A DNA stretch of 64,000 nt from Streptomyces roseirectus (GTDB lineage: Bacteria > Actinomycetota > Actinomycetes > Streptomycetales > Streptomycetaceae): NCBI RefSeq assembly GCF_014489635.1, contig NZ_CP060828.1, positions 3,820,001 through 3,884,000 of the forward strand, read 5' to 3'. Positions 4,837 through 64,000 of the stretch are shown here, piece after piece (the first letter of the stretch is position 1; each line of letters starts with the position of its first letter). The position numbers were made by a program, and so were the translations under genes. The notes below the pieces were generated by a model that saw nothing but the letters and a program-made list of their open reading frames with translations, was not told the DNA's origin and made no database searches.

Positions 4837-7293
4837 TCAGGAGGCGGGCACCACGACCCGCGTCTCCAGCGGGAGGTTCACCGACGACGAGCCGATGTGG
4901 ACCGACCTGGCGCCGGAGCCGGTGGACCAGCCGTGGGTGGTGCTGTTCCAGTACTTCAGCTGCTGTCCGTCGATGTGGACCGTCACCCGGCGGCTCTGGC
5001 CCGGGGCCAGTTCGACCTTGGTGTACCCGGCGAGCGCCTTGTCCGCCTGCGGGGCCCGCACGTCGGGGCTGGCGCCCAGGTACACCTGCGCGACCTCCTT
5101 GCCGGCGCGCTGACCGGTGTTGGTCAGGGTGAAGGCGACGTCGTAGCCGTCACCGGCCGGGGTCACCGACGGGTCCCGGTAGGCGAAGGACGTGTAGGAC
5201 AGGCCGTAGCCGAACGGGAACAGCGGGCGCACCTTGTTCTTGTCGTACCAGCGGTAGCCGACGTAGATGCCCTCGGAGTAGGTCTGTTCGCCGTTCACCC
5301 CCGGGTAGCGCTGAGGGTCGCCCGCGACCGGGGTGCTGTCGATGGAGGCCGGGAACGTCTGGGTGAGCCTGCCGCTGGGGTTGGCGTCACCGAAGAGCAG
5401 CGACGTCGTCGCCTCCGCGCCGGACTGGCCCGGGTACCACATGTCGAGGACCGCGGCGGTGGAGTCGAGCCAGGGCATCGTCAGCGACGATCCGGTGTTG
5501 AGGACGACCACCGTGTTCGGGTTGGCCTGCGCGACCCGGGAGATCAGCTGCTCCTGGCGGCCGGGCAGGGCCAGCGAGGTGCGGTCGGCGCCCTCGGCCC
5601 CGTCGTCGTAGGCGAACACGACGGCGGTGCGGGCCGCCTTGGCGGCGGTGACCGCCTGGTCGATGGCGGCCTCGGCGGCCTGCGGCGTCACCCAGCTCAG
5701 GTCGAGGGTGAGCGGCTTGGTGCCGGTGGTCTGGCCGGTGATGGACAGCTTGTGCTGCCCGGCCGTGAGGCGCAGCGGCACGCTGCTGACCTTGCCGTAC
5801 GCGACCCCGGCCGGGATCGCGGGCGCCCCGTCGAGCTGCACGGACGCGGCGCCGCCGGTCACGCGGACGGCGAGCCGGTAGTCGCCGTCCTCGGGCACGG
5901 TGAGGACGCCGTTGTAGATGCTGCCGATCGTGCCGGGCTCCAGTACCTCGCCGCCCGCGAAGGCGGGGGTGAGGGCGTCGGCCGGGAGGGGGCTGCCGAC
6001 CAGTTCCTCGCCGGTGGAGTAGGTCACCGTGCTGTCGGCGCCGGCGCGGGCGCGGATGGTGTCGAGCGGGGCGGCGGCCGAGTCGGGCACCACGTGGGCG
6101 CTGCCGAGGCCGGCGACCTTCGGTTCCTTGGCCGTGGGGCCGATCACCGCGATGCTCTTCGCGGCGGCACCGGTCAGCGGCAGTGCCTGGTCCTGGTTGC
6201 GCAGCAGGACCGCGCCCTGCTCGGCGACCCGCTGGGCGACCTGCGCCGCGCCCGCGATGTCGCGTGCGGGGCGTGCGGGCGGGTTGGCGCCCACCAGGCC
6301 GAACCGCTGGAGCTGGGTGACGATCCGGCTCACCGCGGTGTCCAGGGCGGCCACCGGGATGCGGCCCTCCTGGACCGCCGCCTTCAGCGGCTCGCCGAAG
6401 TACTTGCCGCCGGGGATCGAGCCGTTGACGCTGTCGGCCCAGTCGATCCCGAGTTCCTGGTCCAGGCCCTTGGTGAGCGAGTCGGTGCTGTGGGTCGCCA
6501 TCCAGTCCGACATCACCCAGCCGCCGAAGTCCCACTGGGTCCGCAGGACGTCGTTGAGGAGTTCCGCGTTGCCGCAGGACGGGGTGCCGTTGACCTTGTT
6601 GTAGGCGCACATGAAGGAGCTGACGCCGGCCTTGGCCGCGCTGCGGAACGCCGGCAGCTCGATCTCGTGGAGCGTCTGCTCGTCGACGTTGACGTCGATG
6701 TTCTCCCGGTTGTTCTCCTGGTTGTTCTCCGCGAAGTGCTTGGCGGTGGCCATCAGGCCCTGGCCCTGGATGCCCTGGATCTCGGCGGCGGCGGTGCGGG
6801 CGGAGACCAGCGGGTCCTCGCTGAACGTCTCGTAGTTCCGGCCGGCCTGCGGGACCCGGATGATGTTCATCATGGGGCCCATGACCAGGTCCTGGCCCAG
6901 TGCACGGCCGTCGCGGCCCATGGTCGCGCCGTAGGACTTCGCCAGCTCGTCGTCGAAGCTGGAGGCCAGCGCGACGGGGGCGGGCAGGGCCGCGGCCGTG
7001 CCCTCGTTGAGGCGGATGCCGGCCGGGCCGTCGGCGGCCCTGATCTCGGGGATGCCGAGCCGGGGGACGCCCGGCAGGTAGCCGACGCTGAACGGGCCGG
7101 AGAGGGTCACCGTCCAGTGCACGAAGGACAGCTTCTCGTCCAGGGTCATCTGGGCGACCAGCGGGTTCAGCGCCTGGTCGGTCCCGGCTCGTTCGTCCGC
7201 GGCGGCCACCCCGCCGGTCAACAGCGTGGTGGCCGCGAGGAGGCCCAGCAGCCGGGTCGCCACCGACCGGCTTCCGGCGACTTGTAGGGGCAC
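4837..7293 (-). CDS. desR: Secreted GH3 beta-glucosidase with PA14 domain (DesR type)
   Basis: Extracellular beta-glucosidase of about 818 residues, matching DesR of the pikromycin cluster, which removes a 2'-glucose from the desosamine of an inactivated macrolide outside the cell. I chose the GTG at 7293: it has GGAAG eight bases upstream and gives a signal peptide (basic start, then LLGLLAATTLLTGGVAAA). The frame is open further upstream to 8508, but that part is antisense to coding content of the P450 gene. The GH3 domain shows ATAKHF and the nucleophile Asp in VMSDWMATH (about residue 262). A PA14 insertion covers about residues 440-560, followed by the second GH3 domain and a fibronectin III-like C-terminus. 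The context implies self-resistance. The partner glucosyltransferase that would add the glucose is not in the window. Confidence 0.9.
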   Translation of the reverse strand: MPLQVAGSRSVATRLLGLLAATTLLTGGVAAADERAGTDQALNPLVAQMTLDEKLSFVHWTVTLSGPFSVGYLPGVPRLGIPEIRAADGPAGIRLNEGTAAALPAPVALASSFDDELAKSYGATMGRDGRALGQDLVMGPMMNIIRVPQAGRNYETFSEDPLVSARTAAAEIQGIQGQGLMATAKHFAENNQENNRENIDVNVDEQTLHEIELPAFRSAAKAGVSSFMCAYNKVNGTPSCGNAELLNDVLRTQWDFGGWVMSDWMATHSTDSLTKGLDQELGIDWADSVNGSIPGGKYFGEPLKAAVQEGRIPVAALDTAVSRIVTQLQRFGLVGANPPARPARDIAGAAQVAQRVAEQGAVLLRNQDQALPLTGAAAKSIAVIGPTAKEPKVAGLGSAHVVPDSAAAPLDTIRARAGADSTVTYSTGEELVGSPLPADALTPAFAGGEVLEPGTIGSIYNGVLTVPEDGDYRLAVRVTGGAASVQLDGAPAIPAGVAYGKVSSVPLRLTAGQHKLSITGQTTGTKPLTLDLSWVTPQAAEAAIDQAVTAAKAARTAVVFAYDDGAEGADRTSLALPGRQEQLISRVAQANPNTVVVLNTGSSLTMPWLDSTAAVLDMWYPGQSGAEATTSLLFGDANPSGRLTQTFPASIDSTPVAGDPQRYPGVNGEQTYSEGIYVGYRWYDKNKVRPLFPFGYGLSYTSFAYRDPSVTPAGDGYDVAFTLTNTGQRAGKEVAQVYLGASPDVRAPQADKALAGYTKVELAPGQSRRVTVHIDGQQLKYWNSTTHGWSTGSGARSVHIGSSSVNLPLETRVVVPAS

Positions 7294-7355: not shown

Positions 7356-8576
7356 TCAGGGGCGGGTGAAGGTGACCGGCAGCCCGTAGAGGCCGAAGAG
7401 CGTCGCGTCGTGCTTGAAGGGCAGGTCGTCCAGTTCGGCGGCGGGGACGACGTCGGGGATCCGGTCGAACAGCGTGCGGAACGCGATCTCCAGCTCCGCC
7501 TTGGCCAGGTGCTGGCCGATGCACTGGTGCGGGCCGTAGCCGAAGGCGAGGTGGTGGCGTTCCGTGCGGTGGATGTCGAACTCGTCCGGGTTCTCGAAGT
7601 GCTCGTCCCGGTTGGCCGAGGCGGCGAGGCCGATCACGCTGTCGCCCGCCTTGATGAGGGTGCCGTCGATCTCGATGTCCTCCTTGGCGGCCCGGCGCAG
7701 CCAGTCCGCGCTGGAGTGGTAGCGCAGGAGTTCGTCGACGGCGGCGGACCACAGCTCGGGGTCGGCCTTCAGCTCGGCCACCACGTCCGGGCGGCGCATC
7801 AGCGTCAGGGCGCCGAGGCCGATCATGTTGGCGCTCGTCTCGTGCCCGACGATGAGCAGCAGCACGGAGGTGTTGACCAGTTCCTCGTGGGTCAGCGCGC
7901 CGGAGCGCAGCTGGTCGACGACCAGGCGGCTGATGATGCCCTCGTCGGGCTCTGCCTCCTTCGCCCGGACCAGCTTGTCCAGGTACTGGTAGAGGTCCAT
8001 GAACGCGGCCATGGTCTCCTCGGCGGTGCTGCTCTGGATCGCCACCGCGGACCGGCTGTGGAAGAACTCCCGGTCGTCGTAGGGGACGCCGAGCAGTTCG
8101 CAGATCACCGCGGTCGCCAGCGGCATCGCCAGCGCCTCGACCAGGTCGACGGGGCCTTCGGTGGCCGCGATCCGGTCCAGCAGCTCGTCGGCGGTCCGCT
8201 GGATCGCCGGGCGCATCGACTGCACGCGCTTGACGGTGAAGTACGAGGTCAGCATCCGGCGGTACACGCCGTGCTCCGGCGGGTCCATCCCGACGAACGT
8301 GCGGAAGTTCGTGCTCTGGCCGTCCTCGCTCGCGGCGAGCGTGGCCAGCCGGGGCGGCTCGGAGCTGATCCTCGGGTCCTGGAGGAGCTTGCGCACCGTG
8401 TCGTAGCGGGTGACCAGCCAGGTCTCCTTGCCGTTCCACAAGGTGGCCTTGACCAGCGGTCCCTGGGCGCGCAGCTCGGTGTACCGCTCCGGCGGGGAGA
8501 ACGGGCACGTGCGTGCCATCGGGAAGGCGGGCAACTCCTGCGCCTGCACAGGCGGGGAGTCGGGTGTCTGCGTCAC
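7356..8576 (-). CDS. Cytochrome P450, CYP105-like (first of two)
   Basis: Heme monooxygenase of 406 residues, likely to hydroxylate or epoxidise the macrolide. The heme motif is FGYGPHQCIG with the Cys ligand, the K-helix ExxR lies in ELLRY, and the I-helix reads VGHETSAN, keeping the acid-Thr pair. GQHLAKAELEI after the Cys and PYDDREFF earlier are CYP105-like, unlike PikC (CYP107). The GTG at 8576 is preceded by AAGGAG at 8 bases. It lies 41 bases after the second P450, so both are probably co-transcribed. No ferredoxin gene is adjacent, so electrons must come from elsewhere. The site of oxidation cannot be deduced. Confidence 0.9.
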   Translation of the reverse strand: MTQTPDSPPVQAQELPAFPMARTCPFSPPERYTELRAQGPLVKATLWNGKETWLVTRYDTVRKLLQDPRISSEPPRLATLAASEDGQSTNFRTFVGMDPPEHGVYRRMLTSYFTVKRVQSMRPAIQRTADELLDRIAATEGPVDLVEALAMPLATAVICELLGVPYDDREFFHSRSAVAIQSSTAEETMAAFMDLYQYLDKLVRAKEAEPDEGIISRLVVDQLRSGALTHEELVNTSVLLLIVGHETSANMIGLGALTLMRRPDVVAELKADPELWSAAVDELLRYHSSADWLRRAAKEDIEIDGTLIKAGDSVIGLAASANRDEHFENPDEFDIHRTERHHLAFGYGPHQCIGQHLAKAELEIAFRTLFDRIPDVVPAAELDDLPFKHDATLFGLYGLPVTFTRP

Positions 8577-8617: not shown

Positions 8618-9853
8618 CTACTCACCGGCTGCTCCGGCGGGCACCGGCTGCTTCGACCAGGACACGGGCAGCGCGTACACGCCGTACATGACCCGGTCGT
8701 CGAGGGTTTTGACGGACTCCGGCGACACCGCGAGGCGGAGGTCCGGGAAGCGCCGGAACAGCTCCCGGTAGCCGACCCGCAGCACGAGCCTGGCCAGTTG
8801 CTGGCCGAGGCAGAGGTGCGGTCCGTGGCCGAACGCCAGGTGCGAGGGGCGCTCGCGGGTGACGTCCAGCCGGTCGGGGTCGGTGTAGTAGCGCGGGTCC
8901 CGGTTGGCGGCGGCGAGCGCGCCCACCACGATCTCGCCCTTGCGGACCAGCTTGCCGCCGAGTTCGAGGTCTTCCTTGGCGCCCCGGATCGTGCCGAGGT
9001 GCACCGTGGTCAGGTAGCGCAGCAGCTCTTCCACCAGGTTGTCCTGGGCCGCCTGGTCGTCGCCGCGCAGGGGCTCCAGCTGGTCGGGGTTCAGCAGCAG
9101 CGCCAGGGTGCCGAGGCCGAGCATGTTGGCGGTGGCGTCGTAGCCGGCGAGCAGCAACAGCACCGCCATCCCGACGACTTCCTCGTCGGTGAGCCCGTTG
9201 TCCCCGGTGACCAGGCCGCTGATGATGTCGTCGGCGGGCTGGGCGCTCTTGGCCCGCACCACGTCCAGCAGGTAGCTGTAGAGGCCGCCGGCCACGACGG
9301 CGATCTCCGTGGTGGGCAGCTCGGCGCTCATGATGACCTCGGAGACCTCTTGGAGGTATTCCCGGTCGTCGTAGGAGACGCCGAGGAGTTCGCAGATGAC
9401 CAGGGCGGCGACCGGGTGCGCGAACTCCTTGACGAGGTCGACGTTCTCGCCGGCCTGTTCCATCGCGTCGAGGCGGCCCTTGGTGATCTCCTCGATGCGC
9501 GGCGTCAGTTGGCGCATGCGGCGGACGGTGAACAGTCCCGTGAGCATCCGCCGGTAGTGGGCGTGCTCGGGGCCGTCCAGGGAGGTGAAGGTGCCGGGCG
9601 GGAGTTCGCCGCGCTCCTCCGGCGGGGTCGCCCGGACCGGCGAGGAGTGCCGGGCGAGGTAGGTGCTGAACCGGGGGTCGGACAGCACCGCCCGGACGTC
9701 CTCCTGCCGGGTCGCCAGCCAGCCCAGCGTGCCGTCGGGGAAGCTGAGCCGGGTCATCGGGTCCGTCTCCCGCAGCCGCTTGTACTCCGCCGGCGGGTCG
9801 AAGAGGTGGGTCCGTTCCGTCGGCAGAGTCATGGGGCATCGGTTGTCGGCCAT
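8618..9853 (-). CDS. Cytochrome P450, CYP105-like (second), I-helix Thr replaced by Ala
   Basis: P450 of 411 residues with heme motif FGHGPHLCLG and ELLRY as ExxR. The I-helix reads AGYDATAN: Asp is kept, but the usual oxygen-activating Thr is Ala (codon 9134-9136, about residue 240). EryF, the erythronolide C-6 hydroxylase, has the same replacement (AGFEAS) and uses substrate-assisted proton delivery, so this enzyme may bind its substrate hydroxyl in the same way. The ATG at 9853 has AAAGG nine bases upstream; a second Met seven codons in lacks a ribosome site. It lies between the DesII homologue and the other P450 and is probably a macrolide tailoring enzyme. The target carbon is unknown. 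Confidence 0.9.
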   Translation of the reverse strand: MADNRCPMTLPTERTHLFDPPAEYKRLRETDPMTRLSFPDGTLGWLATRQEDVRAVLSDPRFSTYLARHSSPVRATPPEERGELPPGTFTSLDGPEHAHYRRMLTGLFTVRRMRQLTPRIEEITKGRLDAMEQAGENVDLVKEFAHPVAALVICELLGVSYDDREYLQEVSEVIMSAELPTTEIAVVAGGLYSYLLDVVRAKSAQPADDIISGLVTGDNGLTDEEVVGMAVLLLLAGYDATANMLGLGTLALLLNPDQLEPLRGDDQAAQDNLVEELLRYLTTVHLGTIRGAKEDLELGGKLVRKGEIVVGALAAANRDPRYYTDPDRLDVTRERPSHLAFGHGPHLCLGQQLARLVLRVGYRELFRRFPDLRLAVSPESVKTLDDRVMYGVYALPVSWSKQPVPAGAAGE

Positions 9854-9907: not shown

Positions 9908-11371
9908 TCAGCGCAGGAAGCCGCGGACGTCCGCCCAGCCGGCGGCCACGTCCGCCGTCATCTGGTTGAGGCGGGCGTTGATCACCTGGTCGTAGCCGTC
10001 CAGGAAGTACTCGTCGCCGGGCATCGGCTCGACCGCGCGGCGTTCGGTGACGAACCGTTCGACGACCTCGGCCAGGCTGGTGTCGGGGGTGACCCGGCCG
10101 GCGATGTAGCGGTCGGCGCCCTTCAGGTCGGGGAAGCCGGCCTCGCGGTAGAGGTAGACGTCGCCCAGCAGGTCGACCTGGACGGCGACCTGCGGGTGCG
10201 CGGTGGGGCGCATGGTCTCCGGGCGGATCCGCAGCAGCTCCGCGTCGACGCCCATCCGCTGGCTCTCCAGCGCGTAGCCGTAGTCGACGTACAGCGTCGG
10301 GGTGAGGGCGCGGACCTTCTCGTCGAAGGCGGCCAGCGCCTCCTGCATCTGGGCGCGTTCCGCCGCCGGGAGTTTGCCGTCGGGGCGTCCGCTGTAGTCC
10401 TCGCGCAGTGTCAGGAACTCCAGCGGCCGGTCGGGGGCGGCGGCGTTCAGCTCGGCGATGTGGTCGACGAGGTCGAGGAGCCGGTGGGCGCGGCCGGGCA
10501 GGATGATGTAGCTGAAGCCGAGGCGGGGCGCGTCCGGTCGTTCCTGGCGCAGTTCCTGGAACCGCAGCAGGTTCTTCTTGACCCGGCTGAAGGCGGCCCG
10601 CTTGGTCGTGGTCGCCTGGTACTCCTCGTCGTTGAGGCCGTACAGCGAGGTGCGGATCGCGTGGACGTCCCAGATGCCGGGCTGGCGGGCCAGGGTCTGC
10701 TCGGTGAGCGCGAACGAGTTGGTGTAGAGGGTGAGTTTCAGTCCGCGCCGGGCCGCGCGGGTGATCAGTTCGCCGAGGCCCGGGTTGGTCAGCGGTTCGA
10801 GGCCGCCGGACAGGTACATCAGCTGGGGGTTGTCGAGGGGGACCTCGTCGATGATCGAGGCGAACATCTCGTTGCCGCCGGCCACCGAGGACGCCTCGTA
10901 CTTCGCGCCGGTCACCCGGACGCAGAAGTGGCAGCGGAACATGCAGGTCGGCCCGGGGTAGAGGCCCACGCTGTTGGGGAACGCCGGTTTTCCGTTCAGC
11001 GCGGCGTCGAGCGCACCGGTGCGCTCGACGGGCAGGACGGTGTTGGTCCAGTACTTGCCGGCCGGGCCCCGCTCCACCGCCGTGCGCAGTTGCGGGATGC
11101 GCCCGAACGCGTCGAGGAGCCTGCGGAACTCCGGGCGCTCGACGCCGAGCCCGTGCCGGGCCGCTTCCAGGGGGGTGAAGGGTTCGGTGCTGTAGGTGCG
11201 GGCCAGCGAGACCAGGTGTGCCGCGAGCCGTTCGGCGTCGGCTTCGCCGGCCCCGGCCGCTTCGCCGACCAGGGGCCGCAGCGCCGCGATCGCCGCCGCG
11301 GGGTCGGCGCCCGGCAGGGTGCACAGCTCGATGACGTTCGGCTCGGATTGCAGTTCCACCGCGCTGCTCAT
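9908..11371 (-). CDS. desII: Radical SAM deaminase for TDP-desosamine (DesII/EryCV type)
   Basis: Radical S-adenosylmethionine enzyme of 487 residues. DesII deaminates TDP-4-amino-4,6-dideoxy-D-glucose to the 3-keto-4,6-dideoxy sugar, the committing C4-deoxygenation step of desosamine. The iron-sulfur motif is CMFRCHFC (CxxxCxxC), preceded by GLYPGPT, and MYLSGGLEPLTNP follows as the SAM-binding GGE-like segment. Length and motif spacing fit DesII as I remember it. It lies 39 bases after the glycosyltransferase in the same direction. It is the most specific sugar marker in the window and makes desosamine, not mycaminose, the likely amino sugar. The DesI, DesIII, DesIV, DesV and DesVI functions are not present here. 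Confidence 0.92.
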   Translation of the reverse strand: MSSAVELQSEPNVIELCTLPGADPAAAIAALRPLVGEAAGAGEADAERLAAHLVSLARTYSTEPFTPLEAARHGLGVERPEFRRLLDAFGRIPQLRTAVERGPAGKYWTNTVLPVERTGALDAALNGKPAFPNSVGLYPGPTCMFRCHFCVRVTGAKYEASSVAGGNEMFASIIDEVPLDNPQLMYLSGGLEPLTNPGLGELITRAARRGLKLTLYTNSFALTEQTLARQPGIWDVHAIRTSLYGLNDEEYQATTTKRAAFSRVKKNLLRFQELRQERPDAPRLGFSYIILPGRAHRLLDLVDHIAELNAAAPDRPLEFLTLREDYSGRPDGKLPAAERAQMQEALAAFDEKVRALTPTLYVDYGYALESQRMGVDAELLRIRPETMRPTAHPQVAVQVDLLGDVYLYREAGFPDLKGADRYIAGRVTPDTSLAEVVERFVTERRAVEPMPGDEYFLDGYDQVINARLNQMTADVAAGWADVRGFLR

Positions 11372-11410: not shown

Positions 11411-12685
11411 TCAGCCAACGGGCACCTCCCGGCGGGTGCGGTGCTCGGCGGTCAGCTGTTCCAGCGCGGTCACGAGTTCGCCGGGGGACGGCTCCGCGAG
11501 TACTTCCTGGCGGAGGCGTTCGGCGGCGGCCTTGAAGGAGGGTTCCTCCAGGACCCGCGTGAGCGCGTCGCGCAGTCCTTGCGGGGTCAGCGTGTTGGGG
11601 CGGATGAAGACTCCGGCGCCCAGTTCCTCGATCCGCTCGGCCTTCAGCACGGTGTCGTACTGCTCGGCGAGCATGATGTGCGGGACGCCGGCGAGCATCG
11701 CGGTCGACCAGGTGCCCGCGCCGCCGTGGTAGATGATCGCGGAGCAGGTCGGCAGCAGGACGTGCATCGGGACGAAGTCGACGATGCGGGTGTTGTCCGG
11801 TACCGGTCCCAGTTCCTCGCGCTGCGAGGCGTCGAGGGTGGCCACGAGTTCGATGTCCAGGTCGGCGGTGGCCTCGATCAGATCGCCGATGGAGACGGCG
11901 TCACCGCCGAGCACTTCGCGGGCGCTCACGCCGAGCGTCAGGCACACGCGGGGGCGCATGGGCGGCTCGCGCAGCCAGTCCGGGACGACGGAGGTGCCGT
12001 TGTAGGGGACGTAGCGCATCGGGACGACGTGCTGGTCGAGCTGGAGCCGGGTGCTCGCCGGGGTGGAGTCGATGGTCCACTGGCCGGTGATCACCTCTTC
12101 GTCGAAGGGGACGCCGTAGCGGTCCAGCGTCCAGGTCAGCCACTCGGCGAGCGGGTCGTCGCGGTGCTCGGGCGGCTGCTCGGCCTGGCGCTGGAGGAAC
12201 AGTCGCCTGGCCCGGAGCTGTACGTCCGGTCCCCACAGCAGGCGGGCGTGGGCCGCGCCGGTCACCCGGGCGGCGACGGCTCCCGCGTAGGTGAAGGGCT
12301 CCCAGACCACCAGGTCGGGCTGCCACTGGCGGGCGAACTCCACGAGGTCGTCGACCATGGTGTCGTTGACCTTGGCGTACATCAGCGGGGTCATCATCGA
12401 CTGCAGGCCGAGCGCGTAGTCCCAGGTCACGATCTCCGGCCGGTCCTCGGCGAAGTTGATCTCCGGGTGTTCGCTGTTGCGGTTGCTCTGGCGCTGCTCG
12501 AAGTCCTGGACGGCGTGGTCCACGCCGACCGGCACCGCGGGCAGTCCGGCCTGCGTGATCGTGTCGGTCAGCGAGGGCTGGCTGGCGACCCGGACTTCGT
12601 GGCCGGCGGCGCGGAACGCCCAGGCCAGCGGGGCCAGCGTGTAGAAGTGCGTGTTGTGTGCGAACGAGGTGAACAGCACGCGCAC
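11411..12685 (-). CDS. desVII: Macrolide desosaminyltransferase (DesVII/EryCIII type)
   Basis: Inverting GT-B glycosyltransferase of 424 residues that would transfer TDP-D-desosamine to a macrolactone hydroxyl, by analogy at C5. I chose the GTG at 12685: AAGGAG sits just upstream (GGAG seven bases before the codon) and the protein begins with the family start RVLFTSFAHNTHFYTLAPLA. The frame extends upstream only as antisense noise to 13963. The donor-binding motif reads YHGGAGTWSTAMLAGVPHI near residue 320. Family members need a P450-like helper, and exactly that gene lies directly upstream (12760-13908). Acceptor and site are inferred. Confidence 0.93.
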   Translation of the reverse strand: MRVLFTSFAHNTHFYTLAPLAWAFRAAGHEVRVASQPSLTDTITQAGLPAVPVGVDHAVQDFEQRQSNRNSEHPEINFAEDRPEIVTWDYALGLQSMMTPLMYAKVNDTMVDDLVEFARQWQPDLVVWEPFTYAGAVAARVTGAAHARLLWGPDVQLRARRLFLQRQAEQPPEHRDDPLAEWLTWTLDRYGVPFDEEVITGQWTIDSTPASTRLQLDQHVVPMRYVPYNGTSVVPDWLREPPMRPRVCLTLGVSAREVLGGDAVSIGDLIEATADLDIELVATLDASQREELGPVPDNTRIVDFVPMHVLLPTCSAIIYHGGAGTWSTAMLAGVPHIMLAEQYDTVLKAERIEELGAGVFIRPNTLTPQGLRDALTRVLEEPSFKAAAERLRQEVLAEPSPGELVTALEQLTAEHRTRREVPVG

Positions 12686-12759
12686 CGGTTGTCTCCTTAG
12701 GCGTTCGGACGGGTGGGGGCCGCGAGGGGCGGTGTCCCCCGGGGTCGCTCGGGCGGCGG

Positions 12760-13908
12760 TCAGGCGGTCACCGGGAACCGCGCGATGGCGCGGCTGACCG
12801 GTGCCCTCCTGCGTCGCACGATCGGCCCGTCCTGCCGGAGCCGGGGCAGCCGGTCGAGGAGCAGGCGAAGCGCGGCTTCGGCCTGCGCCTTGGCCGGCGG
12901 GGCGACGAGTTCGTGGTGCGCGGTGCCCCGCAGGGCGGCGGGGCCGACGCGGTGCGGGTCGAAGCGGTCGGGGTCGGCGAAGACCTTGGGGTCCCGGTTG
13001 GCGGCGGCCAGCAGGACGACGACCTGGCTGTCCGCCGTGATGAGGTGCCCGTCGATCTCGACGTCCTCGCGGGCGACCAGGGGGCACAGGTGGACCGGCG
13101 GGTCGTGGCGCAGGGTCTCGTCGATCGCCTGGGGCAGCAGGCCGGGGTCGGCGCGGACCTCGTCGAGGAGCGCGGGGTCGGCCAGCAGGGCGAGGACCGC
13201 GTTGCTCACCAGGCTCGACGTGGCCTGGACGCCGATGACGGCTGCCAGCATCGCGGCGGTGAGCGCGTCCTCGTCCCGCGTCAGGGCGGCGAGTTGTTCG
13301 CGCAGCCGGCCTGCCGCGGTGATCAGGGCGCGGGCCGGGGCGAGTTGTTGCGGGCAGACCTCGGCGTCGAGCGCGTTGCCGAGGGCGGCGCAGTGGGCGG
13401 CGAAGTCCGGCCGGTCGGCGGGCGGGACGGCGAGGAGGTCGGCGAGGACGCCGGTGGCGAACGGGGTCGCGAAGTCGGCGGCGAGGTCGAAGCGGGTGCC
13501 GAGGGTGTCGAGGAGGTCGGCGCCCACGCGTTCGGCGATCTCCCGGTGGCGTTCGGCCGCCTCGGGCGCCTCGCGGATCCTGTCGTGCGCAGCGCGGTCC
13601 AGGCCGAGGAAGGTGTCGTCCAGGGCCAGCACGTGCTGCGGCGGGGTGCCGCCGTCGGCTGTGCGGGTGTCGAAGCGGGGGTCGGCCAGGATGCGGGCGG
13701 CCGGTTCGTAGCCGGCGCAGACCCAGCTGCCCAGCGGGTTCTGGTGGAGCGCCCCCTGTTCGCGGGCGAGTTCGTAGTGCGGGTGCGGGTCGTCCGTCTG
13801 GGCGCGCAGCAGCAGCGCGTAGGGGTCGCCGAACATGCCGACGTACCACTGGGTCCCGCGGACCAGCTGCATCATGCCGCCGAGTTCGCTGTCCGTCAGA
13901 TCTTTCAT
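12760..13908 (-). CDS. desVIII: Heme-less P450-like glycosyltransferase activator (DesVIII/EryCII type)
   Basis: Protein of 382 residues with a P450 fold but no heme site: where FGxGxHxCxG is expected (about residue 330) it reads GTAHHELVAPPAKAQAEAAL, with no Cys. Other P450 landmarks survive, such as the K-helix region DETLRHD and AAANRDPKVFADPDRFDPHR. DesVIII and EryCII are known to bind and activate DesVII/EryCIII without catalysing oxidation. The start ATG (13908-13906) overlaps the thioesterase stop by one base (TAATG), so translation is coupled. It lies directly upstream of the glycosyltransferase, its predicted partner. Confidence 0.92.
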   Translation of the reverse strand: MKDLTDSELGGMMQLVRGTQWYVGMFGDPYALLLRAQTDDPHPHYELAREQGALHQNPLGSWVCAGYEPAARILADPRFDTRTADGGTPPQHVLALDDTFLGLDRAAHDRIREAPEAAERHREIAERVGADLLDTLGTRFDLAADFATPFATGVLADLLAVPPADRPDFAAHCAALGNALDAEVCPQQLAPARALITAAGRLREQLAALTRDEDALTAAMLAAVIGVQATSSLVSNAVLALLADPALLDEVRADPGLLPQAIDETLRHDPPVHLCPLVAREDVEIDGHLITADSQVVVLLAAANRDPKVFADPDRFDPHRVGPAALRGTAHHELVAPPAKAQAEAALRLLLDRLPRLRQDGPIVRRRRAPVSRAIARFPVTA

Positions 13909-14684
13909 TACGCCCCCGGTCGCCGGGAATCCGCGGTGAGCAGCTTCCCGGAAATCTGGTCACATATCGCTTCGCGGTGTGTGTTCAAGTAGAAATGACC
14001 GCCGGTGAAAATCTTCATATCGAATTCACCGGAGGTGTGCTCGTGCCAGGCGCGGGCGTCCTCGACCGTCACTCTGGGATCCGCGTCCCCGATGAACGAG
14101 GTGATCGGGCAGGACAGCGGTGGACCCGGCCGGTACTCGTAGGTCTCGATCGCCCGGTAATCGCCGCGGATAGCGGGCAGCGCCATGCGCAGGATCTCCT
14201 CGTCGGCCAGGACCTGACTGTCCGTGCCGGAAAGGTGCCGCATTTCCTCGATGAGTCCGGCGTCGTCGCGCAGGTGCACCGTCTCCTGTCGCTGGATCGA
14301 CGGCGCGCGCCGGCCGGAGACGAAGAGGTGGGCGGGTGTGACACCGGCCTCCCGCTCCAGCAGCCGGGCGACCTCGAAGGCGACGACCGCTCCCATGCTG
14401 TGCCCGAACAGGGCGGGGCGGGCGCCCGCGACGGGGCGCAGCACCTCGAAGACCTGGCGCGCGAGCGTCAACAGGTCGGTCGCGCAAGGCTCCTTGCGCC
14501 GGTCCTGCCGCCCCGGGTACTGCACCGCCCGCACCGCGAGATCCGGCGTCAGCCGCTGGGAGAAGGAGAAGTAGGAGCTCGCCGAACCGCCCGCGTGCGG
14601 GAAGCAGGAGAGCGTGACAGCACCGGGCGACGCGGGATGGAACTCCCGCACCCAGAGATCTGTGAGCTCGTCGAAATTCGCCAT
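13908..14684 (-). CDS. Type II thioesterase (PikAV/TylO-like editing enzyme)
   Basis: Free-standing alpha/beta hydrolase of 258 residues that clears misprimed or decarboxylated acyl groups from ACPs of the polyketide synthase. The nucleophile motif is FGHSMGAVVAF, FPHAGGSA is the oxyanion region, SFIGDADPRV carries the Asp, and GGHFYLN has the catalytic His. I chose the ATG at 14684, which has GGGGGAG five bases upstream; the GTG one codon earlier is too close to that ribosome site. It follows the terminal PKS gene after 142 bases and overlaps the start of the P450-like helper, so it is probably in the same transcription unit. Confidence 0.92.
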   Translation of the reverse strand: MANFDELTDLWVREFHPASPGAVTLSCFPHAGGSASSYFSFSQRLTPDLAVRAVQYPGRQDRRKEPCATDLLTLARQVFEVLRPVAGARPALFGHSMGAVVAFEVARLLEREAGVTPAHLFVSGRRAPSIQRQETVHLRDDAGLIEEMRHLSGTDSQVLADEEILRMALPAIRGDYRAIETYEYRPGPPLSCPITSFIGDADPRVTVEDARAWHEHTSGEFDMKIFTGGHFYLNTHREAICDQISGKLLTADSRRPGA

Positions 14685-14826
14685 CACCGCTCCCCCGTTT
14701 CACTGTGGACCAGCCGCCCCAGCGGCTTGGGCGGGCCGGTCCCGGACATGCTCGCAAAGGACTCGGCGAGGCTGTCCGCAGAAATTTCGAATGATGCTGA
14801 ACAAATGGTCAGAAAGGGACGGGGCA
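14685..14826 (-). other. Gap between terminal PKS gene and thioesterase gene
   Basis: No gene is supported. The region contains a modest inverted repeat CCGCCC/GGGCGG (14714-14719 and 14729-14734, 9-base loop), too weak to call a terminator. It also holds the ribosome site of the thioesterase gene (GGGGGAG near 14690). A weak internal promoter cannot be excluded. Confidence 0.4.
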
Positions 14827-24400: not shown

Positions 24401-24786
24401 TCGAGAAGAAGCCGCTGCTGGGGATCCATGGCGAGCGCTTCACGCGGGGAGATCTCGAAGAACGCGGGATCGAACCGGCTGGCGTCCTGGAGGAACCCGC
24501 CCTTGCTGGTGTAGGACTTGCCGGCGCTGTCGGGGTCGGCGTCGTAGAGGTCGTCGACGTCCCAGCCACGATCGGGCGGGAACGAGGAGATGGCGTCGCC
24601 GCCCTCGGCCACCAACTGCCACAGATCCTCGGGGGAGTTGACCCCGCCGGGGTACCGGCAGCTCATGCCGATGATCGCGATCGGCTCGGCGGCCGCGTCC
24701 TCGACCTCTTGGAGACGCTGCTTGGTCTGCCGGAGTTCGGCGGTCATCTGCTTGAGGTAGTGACGGAGTTTGTCCTCATTGGACAT
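14827..24786 (-). CDS. Type I PKS, modules n+8 and n+9 with terminal thioesterase
   Basis: Final assembly-line protein, about 3319 residues. Order with key-residue positions: N-terminal coiled-coil docking (1-33); KS (active Cys about 207, TACSSS); AT with GHSQG (about 648) and YASH (about 750), so methylmalonyl; KR (TGGTGALG about 1190, LDA in place of LDD, Ser-Tyr-Asn-Lys kept); ACP (LGFDSL about 1497); KS (Cys about 1728); AT with GHSIG and HAFH (about 2272), so malonyl; KR (about 2690, intact); ACP (about 2990); TE (GHSGG about 3176, Asp in VLADIYS, His in GNHFTMM). This gives C5-OH/C4-methyl, then C3-OH/unsubstituted C2, then cyclisation. I chose the ATG at 24786 (AAAGGA upstream) over a TTG at 24831. 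The TE resembles PikAIV TE. Confidence 0.93.
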
Positions 24787-40386: not shown

Positions 40387-40387
<1 letters not shown>

Positions 40388-54200: not shown

Positions 54201-56288
54201 CTCATCCACCGGCAACGCGACGGAGACCATCCCGCCCCGCCCGGACAGAGCCAGCAACGCCTTGCTCCGCAACGCCACCACCCGCGCCGCGTCTTCCAGC
54301 GAGAGCGCACCCGCCACAGCCGCAGCCGCGATCTCACCCTGCGAATGCCCAATGACCGCAGCAGGCTCGACACCGTACGAGCGCCACAACGCAGCCAGCG
54401 ACACCATCACCGAGAACAGCACCGGCTGAACCACATCAACCCGCTCCAACGCGGCCTGATCGTCCAACACATCCAGCAACGACCAGTCCACGTGCGGCTT
54501 TAGCGCCTCCGCACAAGCCCGCATCGACTCAGCGAACACCGGCGACGAGCCCAGCAACTCCACCGCCATCCCCACCCACTGCGACCCCTGCCCCGGAAAC
54601 ACGAACACCACCCGGTCATCGGAACCAGCAACCCCCTGCACCAGCCCAGCAGCCGACGCCCCCTCCGCCAGCGCCACCAAACCCGCACGACGGCTGACGG
54701 CATCACCCCCCACCACCACCGCCGCCCGATGCTCAAAACCAGCCCGCCCAGCCGCCAGCGAAAACCCAACATCAACCGAACTCACACCAGGCGTCGCGTC
54801 GAGAAACGCCACCAACCGCTCAGCCTGAGCCCGCAACGCCCCCTCGGTCGCCCCGGACAACACCCACGGCACAACAACATCCGCATCCGCCTCACCCCGC
54901 ACCTCACCCACCGGCGCCTGCTCCAACACAACATGCGCGTTGGTCCCACTCACCCCGAACGACGACACCCCCGCCCGCCGAGGCTCCCCGCTCGCAGGCC
55001 ACTCCTCCGCCTCAGTCAGCAAGGACACCGCCCCCGCCGCCCAGTCCACCTTGGGCGTCGGCTCATCCACATGCAGCGTCTTCGGCATCACCCCATGCCG
55101 CATGGCCATGACCATCTTGATCACGCCACCGACACCGGCAGCAGCCTGCGAATGCCCGATGTTGGACTTCAACGACCCGAGCCGCAAAGGCCGTTCACGA
55201 TCCTGCCCATACGTGGCAAGAATCGCCTGAGCCTCGATCGGATCCCCAAGAGTCGTCCCGGTCCCATGCGCCTCGACGACATCAACCTGTCGAGGCGACA
55301 GCCCGGCACTCTCCAGCGCCGCCCGGATGACCCGCTGCTGAGCAGGCCCGTTGGGCGCGGTAAGCCCACTGCTCGCCCCGTCCTGATTGACCGCGGTCCC
55401 CCGCACGACGGCCAGCACCCGATGCCCGTTCCGCTCAGCATCCGACAGCCGCTCCACGAGCAGCATCCCGGCACCCTCGGACCAAGCGGTCCCGTCCGCC
55501 GCCCCGGCGAAGGACTTGCACCGGCCATCAGCCGCAAGCCCCCGCTGACGGCTGAACTCCACGAACGCGGCCGGGGTGGACATGACGGTGACACCGCCGG
55601 CCAGCGCGAGCGTGCACTCACCCTTGCGCAGCGACTGCACGGCCAGATGCAGGGCGACCAGCGACGAGGAGCAGGCCGTGTCGATGGTGACGGCGGGCCC
55701 TTCGAGCCCGAAGGTGTAGGCCACCCGCCCGGAGACGACACTGCCGGAGTTACCGGTCCCGAGGTACCCCTCGAAGCCGTCGGGCACTTCGTGCAGCCGG
55801 GTCGCGTAATCGTGGTACATCAGCCCGGCGAACACCCCGGTGCGGCTGCCGGCCAGCGCGGTCGGCGCGATCCCGGCCCGCTCGAACGCCTCCCAGGAGG
55901 TTTCGAGCAGCAGCCGTTGCTGCGGATCCATCGCCGCGGCCTCGCGCGGCGAGATCCCGAACAGCCCCGGGTCGAACTCCGCCGCGTCGTGGAGGAATCC
56001 GCTCTCGCGGACGTAGCTGGTGCCGGTGTGGTCGGGGTCCGGGTCGTAGAGCGAGGCGAGATCCCAGCCGCGGTCGGTCGGGAACGGCGAGATCGCGTCG
56101 CCGCCGTCGGCCACCAACTGCCACAGGTCGTCCGGGGAGTTGACCCCGCCCGGGTACCGGCAGCTCATGCCGATGATCGCGATGGGCTCCTGCTCCCCGG
56201 CCTCGAGCTCCTGTACCCGGCGACGGGCCTCTCCGAGGTCGACGGTGGCACGCCGGAGGTAGTCGAGCAGCTTCTCCTCGTTCGACAT
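45243..56288 (-). CDS. Type I PKS, modules n+2 (dead KR) and n+3 (DH-ER-KR)
   Basis: Largest protein of the window, 3681 residues. Order with key-residue positions: docking; KS (Cys about 206); AT (YASH about 752, methylmalonyl); defective KR (about 1185-1300); ACP (about 1489); KS (Cys about 1722); AT (YASH about 2265, methylmalonyl); DH (about 2467); ER ([11 protein letters not shown] about 3058); KR (about 3243, LDD, intact); ACP (about 3548); C-terminal docking. The architecture equals PikAII and EryAII. Outcome: C17 ketone with C16-methyl, then fully reduced C15 with C14-methyl. The ATG at 56288 has AAGGAG ten bases upstream. The two AT domains share a stretch that differs by about one base over 330, a sign of recent gene conversion. 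Confidence 0.95.
46605..47535 (-). other. Enoylreductase domain of module n+3
   Basis: The only ER in the window; boundaries are approximate. It begins near [17 protein letters not shown], contains [17 protein letters not shown], the NADPH site [20 protein letters not shown] and the end motif [13 protein letters not shown]. It should reduce the double bond made by DH/KR of n+3, giving a methylene at C15. The corresponding stretch is missing from the otherwise similar module n+7. Confidence 0.92.
49381..49710. repeat. Direct repeat, copy 1 (AT of module n+3)
   Basis: About 330 bases of methylmalonyl AT sequence matching 53923-54252 (AT of n+2 in the same gene) with one difference seen, in the codon before the YASH region (gggcgg against gcgcgg). 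An offset of 4,542 bases places both within one reading frame. Confidence 0.8.
52330..52770 (-). other. Redox-inactive ketoreductase domain of module n+2
   Basis: The NADPH-binding motif reads TGGTEPLG (Glu codon 52737-52739) in place of TGGTGxLG. The catalytic Lys position is Arg (ARVAGAAHL, codon 52443-52445), and the usual HAAGVLDD segment is HSSPTAEMS. Ser, Tyr and Asn are retained in [20 protein letters not shown]. Loss of cofactor binding and Lys predicts no reduction. Its VAWSPW and AAGN variants are shared with the dead KR of n+6, pointing to common origin. Confidence 0.8.
53923..54252. repeat. Direct repeat, copy 2 (AT of module n+2)
   Basis: Partner of 49381-49710. Both copies encode the same unusual [20 protein letters not shown] segment, which other ATs of the cluster have as LLAQAE or LLAEAE. 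This supports copying between these two modules specifically. Confidence 0.8.
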
Positions 56289-56334: not shown

Positions 56335-59300
56335 TCAGGACCTGCCGAACTGTCGGTCGAGTACGTCGAAGAGTTCTTCGGCGCTGGCGGACAGGAGGTC
56401 GTCGCTCGTCTGTTCCGGCTGCTCGCCGGGGTCGTTCCAGGTGGACAGCAGGCGCTGGAGCCGCGTGGTGATCGCGGTGCGCGCGTCGTCGTCCCCGGGA
56501 ACGGCCGCGAGGAGATCTTCCAGCCGGTCGATCTCGGCGAGCGCGGGTGCGGCGGGGGACTGTTCCGCCGGCGCCAGCTCCGCGCGCAGGTGGTCGCGGA
56601 GGGCGGTCGGCGTCGGGTAGTCGAAGAGCAGGGTGGCCGGCAGGCGCAGTCCGGTGACGGCGCTGAGGCCGTTGCGGAGTTCGACGGCGGTGAGCGAGTC
56701 GAAGCCGAGTTCCAGGAACCCGCGCCCGGCGTCGACGGCGTCGGCCGTGCTGTGGCCGAGGGCGGTGGCGGCGTGACCGCGCACCAGGTCGAGGAGGTGC
56801 CGGTCGCGTTCCGCCTCGGTGAGCCCGGCCAGCCGCTCCTGGAGGGAGGGCCCTTCGGAGGGACCGGCGGCCGGACGGACGGGACCTCGGATCAGCCCGC
56901 GCAGCAGGGCCGGTGGTGTGCCGGTCCGGTTGCGCAGGGCGGCCATGTCGAGCCGGATCGGCACCAGCACCGCGTCGTCGGCGGCCTGGGCCGCGTCCAG
57001 CAGGGCCAGCCCCTGGGGCACGGAGAGCGGCAGCATGCCGAGCCGTGTCATCCGGGCCCGGTCGGTCTCGTCCAGCCCGTCGGCCATCCCGCCGTCGGCC
57101 CAGGGCCCCCAGGCCAGCGCGACGGCGGGCAGGCCGAGCGCCCTGCGGTGGACGGCCAGCGCGTCGAGGAACGCGTTGGCGGCGGCGTAGTTGCCCTGCC
57201 CGGCGCTGCCGAAGGTGGCCGACGCCGAGGAGAACAGCACGAACGCGGCGAGGTCGAGATGACGGGTCAACTCGTGCAGGTTGAGCGCCGCGTCCGCCTT
57301 CGGCCGCAACACGGCGTCGACCCGCTCCGGCGTCAGCGACTCCGCGACCCCGTCGTCCAGAAGCCCCGCCGCGTGCACGACGCCGGTCAGCGGATGCGCT
57401 GCGGGCACCTCGGCGAGCAGGACGGCCAGCGCGTCACGATCGGCCACATCACAGGCGACCACCCGAGCATCAGCACCCAACTCGCCGAGTTCCTTGACGA
57501 GTTCGGCGGCACCCGGCGCAGCTTCACCCCGCCGGCTGGTGAGCAACAGATGCCGGACACCGTGCACGGCCACCAGATGCCGGGCGACATGCCCACCGAG
57601 CGCACCGGTGGCCCCGGTGATCAGCACGGTCCCCGAGGGATCCAGCGGCGCCCGGACGCCGTCCACGGACGGCACGGTCCTGGCCAACCGCGGGGCGTAC
57701 AGGGCGCCTTCGCGGACGGCGAGCTGCGGTTCGCCGGTGGCGACGGCGGCGGCGAGGGCCTGACGGGAGACGGCGTGATCGTCGGTGTCGACGAGCACGA
57801 ACCGGCCGGGATGCTCGGACTGCGCGGAACGAACCAGCCCCCACACGGCGGCACCGGCGAGGTCGGACAACTCGTCGTCGACGCCGGTGGCGACGGCGCC
57901 ACGGGTCACCAGGACCAGCCGGGACGAGGCGAACTTCTCCTCGGCGAGCCACTGCTGGACCAGGTCGAGTGCCCGGTGCGTCGCGGAGTGCACGTCCTCG
58001 CCGGGTGCACCGGAGACGAACACCAGGTCAGGCACGGTGTCGCCGGACGCCAGAGCAGCGAGGTCCGGATAGGGGGTCGCGTCGAGCCCGAGGCCATCGG
58101 CCCCGACGACGGCGAGACTGCCCGCCGTACCGTCCGGCGCCGGGACGGCCGTCCAGTCGACGCGGAACAACGCGTCGCGCGTCACCGCGTCGGCCGCGCG
58201 CACCTGCTCCACCGAGACCGGCCGCAACGCCAGCGACTCGACGAAGGCGACCGCCCGCCCCAGTTGATCCGCGACGGTCAGCGACACGGCGTCCCGCCCT
58301 GCGGGCGCGATCCGCACCCGCAGGGCACCGGCACCCTCGGTGTAGAGGCTCACGTCACGCCAGGAGAAGGGCAGCCGCGCCCCGTCGGAACCGTCGAAGA
58401 AGTCACCCAGCCGCACGGCGTGCAGCGCGGCGTCGAGCAACGCCGGGTGCAGCCCGAACCGCCCGGCGTCGGCCTGGTTCCGCTGCGGCAGGGCGACCTC
58501 GGCGAAGACGTCGTCCCCACGCCGCCACGCCGCCCGCAGCCCACGGAACGCGGGCCCGTAACCCAGCCCGGCCGAGGCGAGGTCGTCGTAGAGACCGTCC
58601 AGGTCGACGGCTTCCGCATCGACGGGCGGCCACGCGCCCAACTCGCCGGGCGCCGAGTGCGCCGACTGCGCCGCCTCGCCGAGCACGCCGGTCGCGTGCC
58701 GGGTCCAGGTGGTGGCGTCGCCTTCGAGACGGGAGTGGATGGCGAGCGAGCGCCTACCGGACTCGTCGGGTTCGGCGACGGTGACACGCAGTTGGACACC
58801 GCCGCGCTCGGGGAGAACCAACGGGGCCTCAAGCGTCAGCTCTTCCAAGGCACCGCATCCCACACGCGTCCCGGCGTGCACCGCCAGCTCGACGAAGGCC
58901 GTGCCGGGCAAGAGCACCGATCCCATCACGGCGTGATCGGCCAACCAGCCGTGGGAGGCGACCGACAGGCGGCCCGAGAACACCAGGCCCTCGGGCAGTT
59001 CCACCGCAGCGCCGAGCAGTGGGTGACCGGCCGAGACCAGACCCGCCGACTCCACCTCCGCCACATCCGCAGCGGAGTCCAGCCAGTACCGCTCACGCTG
59101 GAAGGCGTAGGTGGGCAGATCCACCCGACGGGCGCCGCTGAAGAACGCGGTCCAGTCGATCGTCACGCCCCGCGTGTGGGCGGTGGCCAGGGCTGTCACC
59201 AGGGACTGCGCTTCGTCGCGGTCCTTACGCAACACCGGCACAGCCGCCAGACCCTCGCCGGTCCAGCACTCCTGCGCGAGGGCGCTCAACGCACCATCCG

Positions 59301-61749
59301 GGCCCAGCTCGACGAACGTCGTGACGCCCTTCGCCTCCAGTGCCCGGACGCCGTCCAGGAACCGGACGGCCTCGCGGACGTGGCGGACCCAGTAGTCGGC
59401 ATCCGGCGTCACCTCGGCCCCGGTGAGAGTAGACACGATCGGGATGCGCGGAGCCTCATAGCTCAGACCCGCAGCCACCTCACGAAAAGCACTGAGCATT
59501 CCATCCATGTGCGAGGAGTGGAACGCATGACTGACGGCGAGCCGCTTGGTCTTACGCCCCTGCTGGGCAAAGCCGTCCGCGATCCCCAGGACCTTGTCCT
59601 CATCACCCGCCACCACCACCGACGACGGCCCGTTGACCGCAGCGATGCTCACACCGTCCACCAGCAGCGGCGCCACTTCCTCCTCGGACGCCTGCACCGC
59701 CACCATCGCCCCACCCCCCGGCAGCTCCTGCATCAACCGCCCCCGGGCAGCCACCAGCGCACACGCATCCCCCAGCGACAACACCCCCGCCACATGCGCA
59801 GCCGCCAACTCACCGATCGAATGCCCCGCCACGAAATCAGGAGCAAGCCCCCACGACTCCACCAGCCGGAACAACGCCACCTCAACCGCGAACAACGCCG
59901 GCTGGGTATAAGCGGTCTGATCCAGCAACTCCCCGCCGCCGAACACCACGTCCCTCAGCGGCAGTTCAAAGTGCCCACACACCTCATCAAACGCCGCAGC
60001 GAACACGGGATAGACGCCATACAACTCACGCCCCATCCCCACCCGCTGCGCCCCCTGCCCACTAAACAGAAACGCCACCCGCCCCTCAGACACGACACCC
60101 CGCACCACCCCAGGAGCCGAAGCCCCCTCCACCAGCCCCACCAAACCCGCACGACGGCTGGCGACATCACCCCCCACCACCACCGCCCGATGCTCAAAAC
60201 CAGCCCGACCAACAGCCAGCGAAAACCCAACATCAACCGCACTCACCCCAGAATCCACAACCCCCAACAACCGCTCAGCCTGCGCCCGCAAAGCGGCCTC
60301 GCTCTTGGCCGACAACACCCACGGCACAACACCCACCGCCTCAGCAGCGGGAGCCTCCTCAACCGCCGGCGCCTCTTCAAGAATCACGTGCGCATTAGTC
60401 CCGCTCACCCCAAACGCAGAAACCGCCCCCCGACGCGGCGCACCAGTCTCCGGCCAGGCAATCCGCTCAGTAAGCAGCGACACCGCCCCCGCAGCCCAGT
60501 CCACATGCGACGACGGCTCATCCACATGCAGCGTCTTAGGCAACACCCCATGCCGCAACGCCTGAACCATCTTGATCACACCGGAAACCCCGGCCGCAGC
60601 CTGCGTATGCCCGATGTTCGACTTGACGGACCCAAGCCACAACGGCCGTTCAGCAGCCCGATCCTGCCCATACGTCGCCAACAACGCCTGCGCCTCGATC
60701 GGATCCCCAAGCCTGGTCCCGGTCCCATGCGCCTCAACGGCATCCACATCAGCCGGACCAAGCCCCGCATTGGCAAGCGCAGCCCGAATCACCCGCTGCT
60801 GAGCCGGCCCACTGGGCGCGGTCAGCCCATTGGAAGCCCCGTCCTGATTGATGGCCGTCCCCCGAACCACGGCGAGCACGGGATGCCCATTCCGCTGAGC
60901 ATCGGAAAGCCGCTCGACGAGCAGCATGCCGACCCCCTCACCCCACCCAGTCCCATCCGCCGCCTCCGCAAAGGACTTGCACCGCCCATCCCGAGCAAGC
61001 CCGCCCTGACGACTGAACTCGGTGAAGACGGTGGGCGTGGGCATCACGGTGACCCCACCGACGAGCGCCAGCCCGCACTCTCCCTGCCGCAACACCTGAG
61101 CGGCCTGATGCAGTGCGACGAGCGAGGACGAACACGCGGTGTCGAGCGTCACGGCGGGCCCTTCGAACCCGAAGGTGTAGGCGATCCGCCCGGACGCGAC
61201 ACTCGTCACGTTCCCGGCAAGCAGATGCCCCTCGGTGCCACCCGGCGCCCGATGCATGCTCGCCCCGTACCCGGAGAAGGAAACCCCGAGAAAAACCCCG
61301 GTCCGACTACCGCGCACCGACGCCGGATCGATCCCGGCCCGCTCAAGCACCTGCCAGGCCGCTTCGAGAAGGAGCCGCTGCTGCGGGTCCATCGCCAACG
61401 CCTCACGCGGCGAGATCCCGAAGAACTCGGCGTCGAAGTCCGCGACACCGGTGACGAAGCCACCCTCACGCGCATACGTAGTGCGGGGCCGCTGATTGTC
61501 AGGGTCGTAGAGGGCATCAACGTCCCACCCACGATCGTCCGGGAACCCGGTGATCGCGTCCCGGCCCTCGTCGACGAGTCGCCACAGATCCTCCGGCGAC
61601 TCGACGTCGCCGGGGTACCGGCAGCTCATGGCGACGATCGCCAGAGGCTCCTGTTCCTTCGACTCCAGCTCGCGCAGACGCTGGCGGGTCGAGTGCAGTT
61701 CGGTGGTGACTTCCTTGAGGAAGTGCCGCAGCTTGTCTTCGTTCGCCAT
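56335..61749 (-). CDS. Type I PKS, module n+1 (malonyl, DH-KR)
   Basis: Single-module PKS of 1804 residues. Order with key-residue positions: coiled-coil docking ([18 protein letters not shown]); KS (Cys about 208); AT (GHSIG about 645, HAFH about 742, malonyl); DH ([11 protein letters not shown] about 940, Asp in [10 protein letters not shown]); KR (ITGATGALG about 1382, LDD, intact); ACP (about 1687); C-terminal docking ending [11 protein letters not shown]. It should form the C18=C19 double bond next to the C17 ketone. The architecture equals pikromycin module 2. The ATG at 61749 follows GAGGG. Parts of its AT-DH and KR regions are nearly identical in DNA to module n+5, 21 kb away. Confidence 0.95.
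58991..59339. repeat. Direct repeat, copy 2 (AT tail to DH start, module n+1)
   Basis: Partner of 37611-37959. The next base downstream differs in each direction (37610 t against 58990 c; 37960 a against 59340 g), which fixes the ends of exact identity. Confidence 0.85.

Positions 61750-64000: not shown

Follow-up and report, generated by a model that had tools for sequence, protein, structure and literature searches.

What does a modular polyketide synthase (PKS) make when the sugar genes beside it resemble those for desosamine, and when the line itself exceeds the six or seven modules that, to our knowledge, build the known desosamine macrolides? This question is raised by a stretch of 64,000 nucleotides of Streptomyces roseirectus (positions 3,820,001-3,884,000 of contig NZ_CP060828.1; hereafter the window), the genome of which forms a single contig of 9.95 Mb. 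A first-pass annotation of the window had proposed a desosaminyl macrolide, and had considered either a larger ring or a ring of 14 atoms to which a very long side chain is attached. The locus is a real and complete macrolide cluster that is conserved, belongs to a known kind and exceeds its nearest relatives in length. It spans about 79 kb, from an aldo-keto reductase (AKR) gene starting at window coordinate 3889 to an O-methyltransferase gene ending at 82768, its right part lying beyond the window. With moderate confidence, we read it as one cluster that directs the synthesis of a neutral macrolide glycoside with a 14-membered ring, a 13-carbon side chain and D-chalcose at C5.

The PKS is encoded by eight head-to-tail genes in one direction and consists of a KSQ loading module with a malonyl-type acyltransferase (AT; motif HAFH), 12 extension modules and a terminal thioesterase (TE); every module has its own AT, as in modular type I PKSs of the cis-AT type. 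Nine modules (M4 to M12) lie entirely within the window and M3 is truncated at position 64000, in line with the at least ten extension modules that had been counted there. Extending the sequence to the right yielded the rest of M3, M2, M1 and the KSQ loading module, as had been anticipated, so that the total of 12 indeed surpasses the lines of the known desosamine macrolides. M1 is a methylmalonyl module with dehydratase (DH), enoylreductase (ER) and ketoreductase (KR) domains, and the KR domains of M5 (GGTEPLG, with a short deletion after the cofactor loop) and M9 (GGTGPLA, with a deletion as in M5) are degenerate. Orthologous clusters were found in S. noursei A-2-1 and Streptantibioticus rubrisoli DSM 42083, and the numbers of genes and modules, the AT types and the broken KR motifs of M5 and M9 are kept in all three. 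The accessory genes are 72-93% identical in the two relatives, which differ from the host in that DesIII- and DesIV-like genes (recognized by eye, next to the TylF-type gene) are attached to the cluster. The features of the host cluster are, in window coordinates:

3889..4776, plus strand: AKR, proposed TDP-3-keto-4,6-dideoxyglucose 3-ketoreductase (PRK10376 family, 276 bits, cut-off 280)
4837..7290, minus strand: GH3 DesR-type beta-glucosidase, start inferred (Pfam GH3 N and C, Fn3-like)
7356..8576, minus strand: cytochrome P450, tailoring (PF00067; 87-88% in both orthologous clusters)
8618..9853, minus strand: cytochrome P450, tailoring (PF00067; 76-79% in both orthologous clusters)
9908..11371, minus strand: DesII, radical SAM TDP-4-amino-4,6-dideoxyglucose ammonia-lyase (TIGR04426, 820.8 bits, cut-off 450)
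11411..12700, minus strand: DesVII-type activator-dependent glycosyltransferase, start inferred (TIGR04516, above cut-off; 64% to DesVII of the S. gardneri locus L034)
12760..13908, minus strand: DesVIII-type P450-derived glycosyltransferase activator (TIGR04515, above cut-off)
13908..14687, minus strand: type II (editing) thioesterase (PF00975)
14827..24831, minus strand: PKS gene 8, M11 (methylmalonyl, KR), M12 (malonyl, KR), ACP, TE
24828..34868, minus strand: PKS gene 7, M9 (methylmalonyl, degenerate KR), M10 (methylmalonyl, DH-KR)
34919..40399, minus strand: PKS gene 6, M8 (malonyl, DH-KR)
40387..45243, minus strand: PKS gene 5, M7 (methylmalonyl, KR), predicted source of the ring-closing C13 hydroxyl
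45243..56288, minus strand: PKS gene 4, M5 (methylmalonyl, degenerate KR), M6 (methylmalonyl, DH-ER-KR; 45246-51749)
56335..61749, minus strand: PKS gene 3, M4 (malonyl, DH-KR)
61788..70919, in the window to 64000, minus strand: PKS gene 2, M3 (malonyl, KR), M2 (methylmalonyl, KR)
70964-80326, beyond the window: PKS gene 1, KSQ loading module, M1 (DH-ER-KR)
80327-81574, beyond the window: DesI (TIGR04427, above cut-off)
81908-82768, beyond the window: TylF-type O-methyltransferase

Two entries of the list of open reading frames are over-long, as 4837-8508 overlaps the P450 gene at 7356-8576 and 11411-13963 overlaps the DesVIII gene.

The modules read as a chain of 26 carbons with eight methyl branches. 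Its tail part is predicted to be CH3CH2-CH(Me)-CHOH-CH(Me)-CHOH-CH2-CH=CH-CO-CH(Me)-CH2-CH(Me)-, continuing into CH(O), and its ring part -CH(O)-CH(Me)-CH=CH-CO-CH(Me)-CH=C(Me)-CHOH-CH(Me)-CHOH-CH2-CO-. The TE would close this chain on the C13 oxygen, which stems from M7; the resulting 14-membered lactone would bear a hydroxyl at C3, a sugar at C5, an enone at C9 and a side chain of 13 carbons. On this reading of the modules, only C13 can close a ring of 12 to 16 members, since C15 is a methylene and C11 part of an alkene. A 14-membered ring is supported because M7 to M11 match the pikromycin-type order except for an ER, and because, among solved structures, the closest relatives of the TE belong to 14- and 16-membered macrolides. 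The nearest solved relatives of the TE, which resides at the end of the gene at 14827-24831, are 9cel ('Type I PKS module 7'), the DEBS TE and the tylactone TE, and the TE of PikAIV ranks behind all three; the expected terminal TE is thus present, while its description as PikAIV-like was a loose one.

As pikromycin-type references we used genome G270 and the S. gardneri locus L034, both of which we take, from their gene content, to be pikromycin/narbomycin clusters. G270 encodes DesI, DesII, DesV, DesVI, DesVII, DesVIII and a GH3 enzyme, and its modules M1 to M5 were read by motif as methylmalonyl with KR, malonyl with DH-KR, methylmalonyl without a KR motif, methylmalonyl with DH-ER-KR and methylmalonyl with KR; three stray matches to the DH pattern in modules without DH were treated as chance. 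AT types and reductive domains of the host M7 to M11 equal those of G270 M1 to M5 apart from the ER, which is missing from host M10, and the S. gardneri locus shares DesI, DesII, DesVII (64%), DesVIII (40%) and DesR (65%) with the host. The host differs from the pikromycin type in having 12 modules instead of six, a last module with malonyl specificity and a KR, unpaired ketosynthase (KS) domains, no DesV or DesVI, and TylF and AKR genes.

The latter difference bears directly on the sugar. DesI and DesII lead to TDP-3-keto-4,6-dideoxyglucose, from which ketoreduction and 3-O-methylation lead to D-chalcose. The first-pass annotation was right about DesII-, DesVII- and DesVIII-type genes and about a DesR-type glucosidase, and to the right, where it expected the remaining sugar genes, lie DesI and a TylF-type O-methyltransferase; DesV and DesVI are absent from the cluster, and desosamine was therefore not upheld. 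Using DesV and DesVI of the S. gardneri locus as queries, the 164 kb examined in the host gave only DesI for DesV (34%) and no match for DesVI, and in both orthologous clusters, searched whole, no DesVI was found at E 1e-5 and the DesV query matched the DesI genes only (34-36%). In the complete host genome, the best DesVI match was 34% over 101 residues, compared with 55-100% for true DesVI at DesII loci.

The same two gene sets were followed through 29 DesII loci from 28 records, namely 26 loci and three plasmid regions (those with desII among seven records; L025 and L039 are one plasmid), with L030 counted together with its flanks L064/L065 and L031 with L066/L067. A DesV (47% or more) and/or a DesVI (55% or more) was present at 13 loci, and none of these yielded a hit for TylF or AKR at E 1e-15. 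Conversely, TylF and AKR at 80% or more occurred at four (L030, L031, L050 and L053), which lacked a true DesV or DesVI within the stretches examined; the AKR orthologs at these loci are 80-86% identical to that of the host. Neither set was seen at the other 12, save for a 32% TylF match in L032. Host DesI is 85-88% identical to DesI of the four TylF/AKR loci and at most 69.3% to the others. Among the best 120 of 665 TylF relatives, 11 proteins at 69-96% form a separate group, after which identity drops to 61%.

One of the four, S. goshikiensis L050, presumably belongs to a chalcomycin-type cluster, judging from its gene content. It shares DesI (87%), TylF (81%), AKR (81%), DesII (66%) and GH3 (60%) with the host, and DesV and DesVI are absent from the 21-kb stretch; DesIII- and DesIV-like genes are also present (by eye), and the PKS falls outside the stretch. 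Unlike the host, it has an epimerase-like gene (by eye) and a second TylF-type gene (54%), a mycinose-like combination. A further comparison is offered by plasmid pSGRIFU1 of S. griseofuscus, which we take to carry the lankamycin cluster. It resembles the host in DesI (61%), DesII (65%), GH3 (60%), the glycosyltransferase (50%) and the lack of DesV and DesVI, and differs in its six KS domains (by the motif searched), an AKR match of only 31%, no TylF hit and a second sugar. Lankamycin is, according to PMC10094535, a 14-membered macrolide with D-chalcose at C5. A review reports that DesVII/DesVIII together with genes for TDP-3-O-demethyl-D-chalcose gave 3-O-demethyl-D-chalcosyl derivatives of tylactone and narbomycin (PMC6693128), which shows sugars of the chalcose type to be accepted by this pair.

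As DesI and DesII occur here without DesV and DesVI and together with AKR and TylF, the gene content suggests that the sugar is most likely D-chalcose and not desosamine. DesI and DesII would provide TDP-3-keto-4,6-dideoxyglucose, AKR and the O-methyltransferase would convert it to D-chalcose, and DesVII/DesVIII would attach the latter at C5, presumably followed by one or two P450 oxidations. The GH3 glucosidase, which is 65% identical to DesR of the S. gardneri cluster, probably acts like DesR and strips a glucose with which the sugar is protected during export; a search for a macrolide-inactivating glucosyltransferase as its partner, with the lankamycin-plasmid enzyme as query, gave a best match of 35% over 137 residues. 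The predicted aglycone is C34H56O8 (592.398) and its chalcoside C41H68O11 (736.476; [M+Na]+ 759.465), to which each P450 oxidation would add 15.995. If the sugar is chalcose, a fragment at m/z 158 (158.118) should be missing and one at m/z 145 (145.086) should be seen. Accordingly, DesII, DesVII and DesVIII do not by themselves mark desosamine, and the deciding genes are DesV/DesVI versus TylF/AKR. A 14-membered macrolide with a long side chain is known in sekothrixide from Saccharothrix, which is similar in general shape. In line with the earlier impression, no described product was matched, in a search that covered literature with few subscription journals and not MIBiG, which makes this weak evidence of novelty. 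Sequanamycin was considered and dismissed, as it carries other sugars in the part of its description consulted (PMC9994261). If the proposed structure is true, three genomes encode a macrolide that joins a 14-membered ring of the ribosome type to a tail of unusual length.

Several points weigh against this structure. The KS domains of M7 to M12 do not pair module by module with those of the pikromycin PKS. In all three clusters the DH of M1 retains the H of HxxxGxxxxP and lacks the G, which may leave a hydroxyl at C25. Docking ends were compared by eye, and since most interfaces look alike they do not fix the gene order. With regard to the sugar, the host cluster has no DesIII or DesIV (the best DesIV in the genome, 62%, lies at 6.37 Mb), the AKR scores just below the cut-off of PRK10376, a generic oxidoreductase family, and the L050 and L053 stretches are short (21 and 14 kb), so that DesV or DesVI could sit further out. 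As the lankamycin-type plasmid has no close AKR or TylF, the AKR/TylF route is moreover not the sole route to chalcose.

Ring size in particular is deduced from domain order, and the TE of the same line could instead use the hydroxyl at C21 or C23 to form a 22- or 24-membered chalcosyl macrolide. Both hydroxyls should exist, since the KR motifs of M3 and M2 are intact, and the ring would then draw on all 12 modules. We regard this outcome as rather unlikely in view of the relatives of the TE, the copy of the pikromycin order in M7 to M11, and a DesVII-type glycosyltransferase that is 64% identical to that of a pikromycin-type cluster. Of the two options initially considered, the one with a ring of 14 members and a very long side chain fits the domains best. 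A different 4,6-dideoxyhexose appears improbable: TylF-family enzymes methylate several sugar positions and the facial selectivity of the AKR could be either, its stereochemistry and the position of methylation being predicted, which makes an epimer such as 3-epi-chalcose, or an unmethylated sugar with the methyl group on the aglycone, possible. However, the same AKR/TylF/DesI set recurs at 80-87% in L050 with its resemblance to a chalcomycin-type cluster.

It is very doubtful that the sugar is desosamine after all, with DesV and DesVI acting in trans from elsewhere in the genome. Homologs of DesI, DesII, DesVII, DesVIII and DesR are all there, and the best DesV-like gene of the host, an aminotransferase at 1.915 Mb, has 43% identity, near the 47% of DesV from two Nocardiopsis loci. 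However, this gene adjoins IspH and a second aminotransferase, with a polyprenyl-synthase-like gene nearby (by eye), the complete genome has no DesVI, and TylF and AKR are kept in both orthologous clusters; the genome-wide searches for DesV and DesVI led us to reject this explanation. That the sugar genes form a neighboring cluster apart from the PKS, as the first-pass annotation had allowed for and as DesI and DesII at opposite PKS ends might hint, has next to no standing and was rejected on synteny, because in each of three genomes, and at a different chromosomal site in each, they flank the same eight PKS genes.

The surroundings of the aminotransferase are a separate observation: between 1.913 and 1.919 Mb (L027, 12796-19213) two adjacent DegT-type aminotransferases, a methyltransferase and IspH are encoded along with, by eye, UbiA-like and polyprenyl-synthase-like genes, and the region looks like an amino-sugar or meroterpenoid cluster.

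Returning to the 14-membered ring with its 13-carbon side chain, the question arises how such a line originated. M3 to M6 and M7 to M10 have a common domain order, except that M3 and M7 differ in their extender and that M6 has an ER. In trees of the three clusters, KS4 groups with KS8 (100/100), KS6 with KS10 (100/100), KR5 with KR9 (100/97) and KR4 with KR8 (84/84); KS5, in turn, joins KS11 (91/81) before KS9. When PKSs of the pikromycin and lankamycin type were added, KS6 and KS10 (100/100), KS4 and KS8 (85/67) and KS5 and KS11 (97/91) again grouped. For the S. rubrisoli line, AT domains being left out as homogenized, nine of 20 reciprocal-best pairs fell at an offset of four modules, a count that was reached in 22 of 5000 label shuffles at this offset and in 308 of 5000 at some offset; DH-bearing modules pair partly by type. 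Together, these comparisons of domains suggest that M3 to M6 and M7 to M10 may represent a four-module duplication. It might tentatively be speculated that a tandem duplication occurred within a pikromycin-like PKS, the second copy now making most of the ring and the first an echoing side chain; the tail would then repeat the ring at a period of eight carbons, with ketones at C9 and C17 and enones at C10-C11 and C18-C19. As KS domains 1, 3, 4 and 5 of pikromycin cluster together in the KS tree, this tree does not support a descent of M7 to M11 from the pikromycin modules. If the duplication is true, it would be a natural case of an assembly line that doubled and yet stayed functional, which would be useful for PKS engineering, and the product, with tail and ring of about equal length, would perhaps constitute a class undescribed for any sequenced cluster.

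Homogenization is evident in the KR1 and KR6 fragments, which are identical within S. noursei, identical within S. rubrisoli and 97% identical in the host, and which differ between the species. This is strong concerted evolution by repeated gene conversion inside each cluster, of the sort described for PKSs generally in PMC4256081.

The cluster is set between ribosomal protein and elongation factor genes:

3127..3435, minus strand: rpsJ, left chromosomal boundary (S10 ribosomal operon; protein read)
91253-92446, past the window end: tuf, right chromosomal boundary

The right flank past the cluster continues with tuf, fusA, rpsG and rpsL. The gap between tuf and rpsJ amounts to 88 kb in the host (3435 to 91253), compared with 0.4-24 kb (median 7.3 kb) in the 21 of 24 genomes of the same genus that have both genes on one contig; in the remaining three, the genes are far apart (one), on different contigs (one) or without an rpsJ match (one). 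The gap is thus a variable spot, which here has taken up a whole biosynthetic gene cluster. Both orthologous clusters are located at other chromosomal places, not between tuf and rpsJ, and the ribosomal setting is therefore not part of the cluster's function. DesII was detected at E < 1e-100 in six of 392 genomes of the genus, the host counted, and TylF at E < 1e-120 in one of 150 relatives, which is the host genome itself. A DNA-level plasmid search with window positions 12000-20000 returned only PKS matches, up to 80-90% identical over parts of the query and none covering 80% of it.

Some further genes were noted at the borders of the cluster and elsewhere in the genome. The interval between cluster and tuf (83290-87170; L009/L010) encodes an extracellular solute-binding-like protein (by eye) and a protein of 834 amino acids with a match to an EACC1-associated caspase (117 bits, below the cut-off of 140) and a VWA-like part seen by eye, possibly a small conflict-type set without relation to the macrolide. 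Far from the cluster, at 2.10 Mb (L099, 1498-2274), lies a gene for an Erm-type 23S rRNA methyltransferase, above cut-off for the ErmE/H/O/R family, which could be the producer's self-protection. Finally, two more EF-Tu genes are present at 8.478 Mb and 7.868 Mb, their products being 88% and 63% identical to that of the cluster-adjacent tuf.

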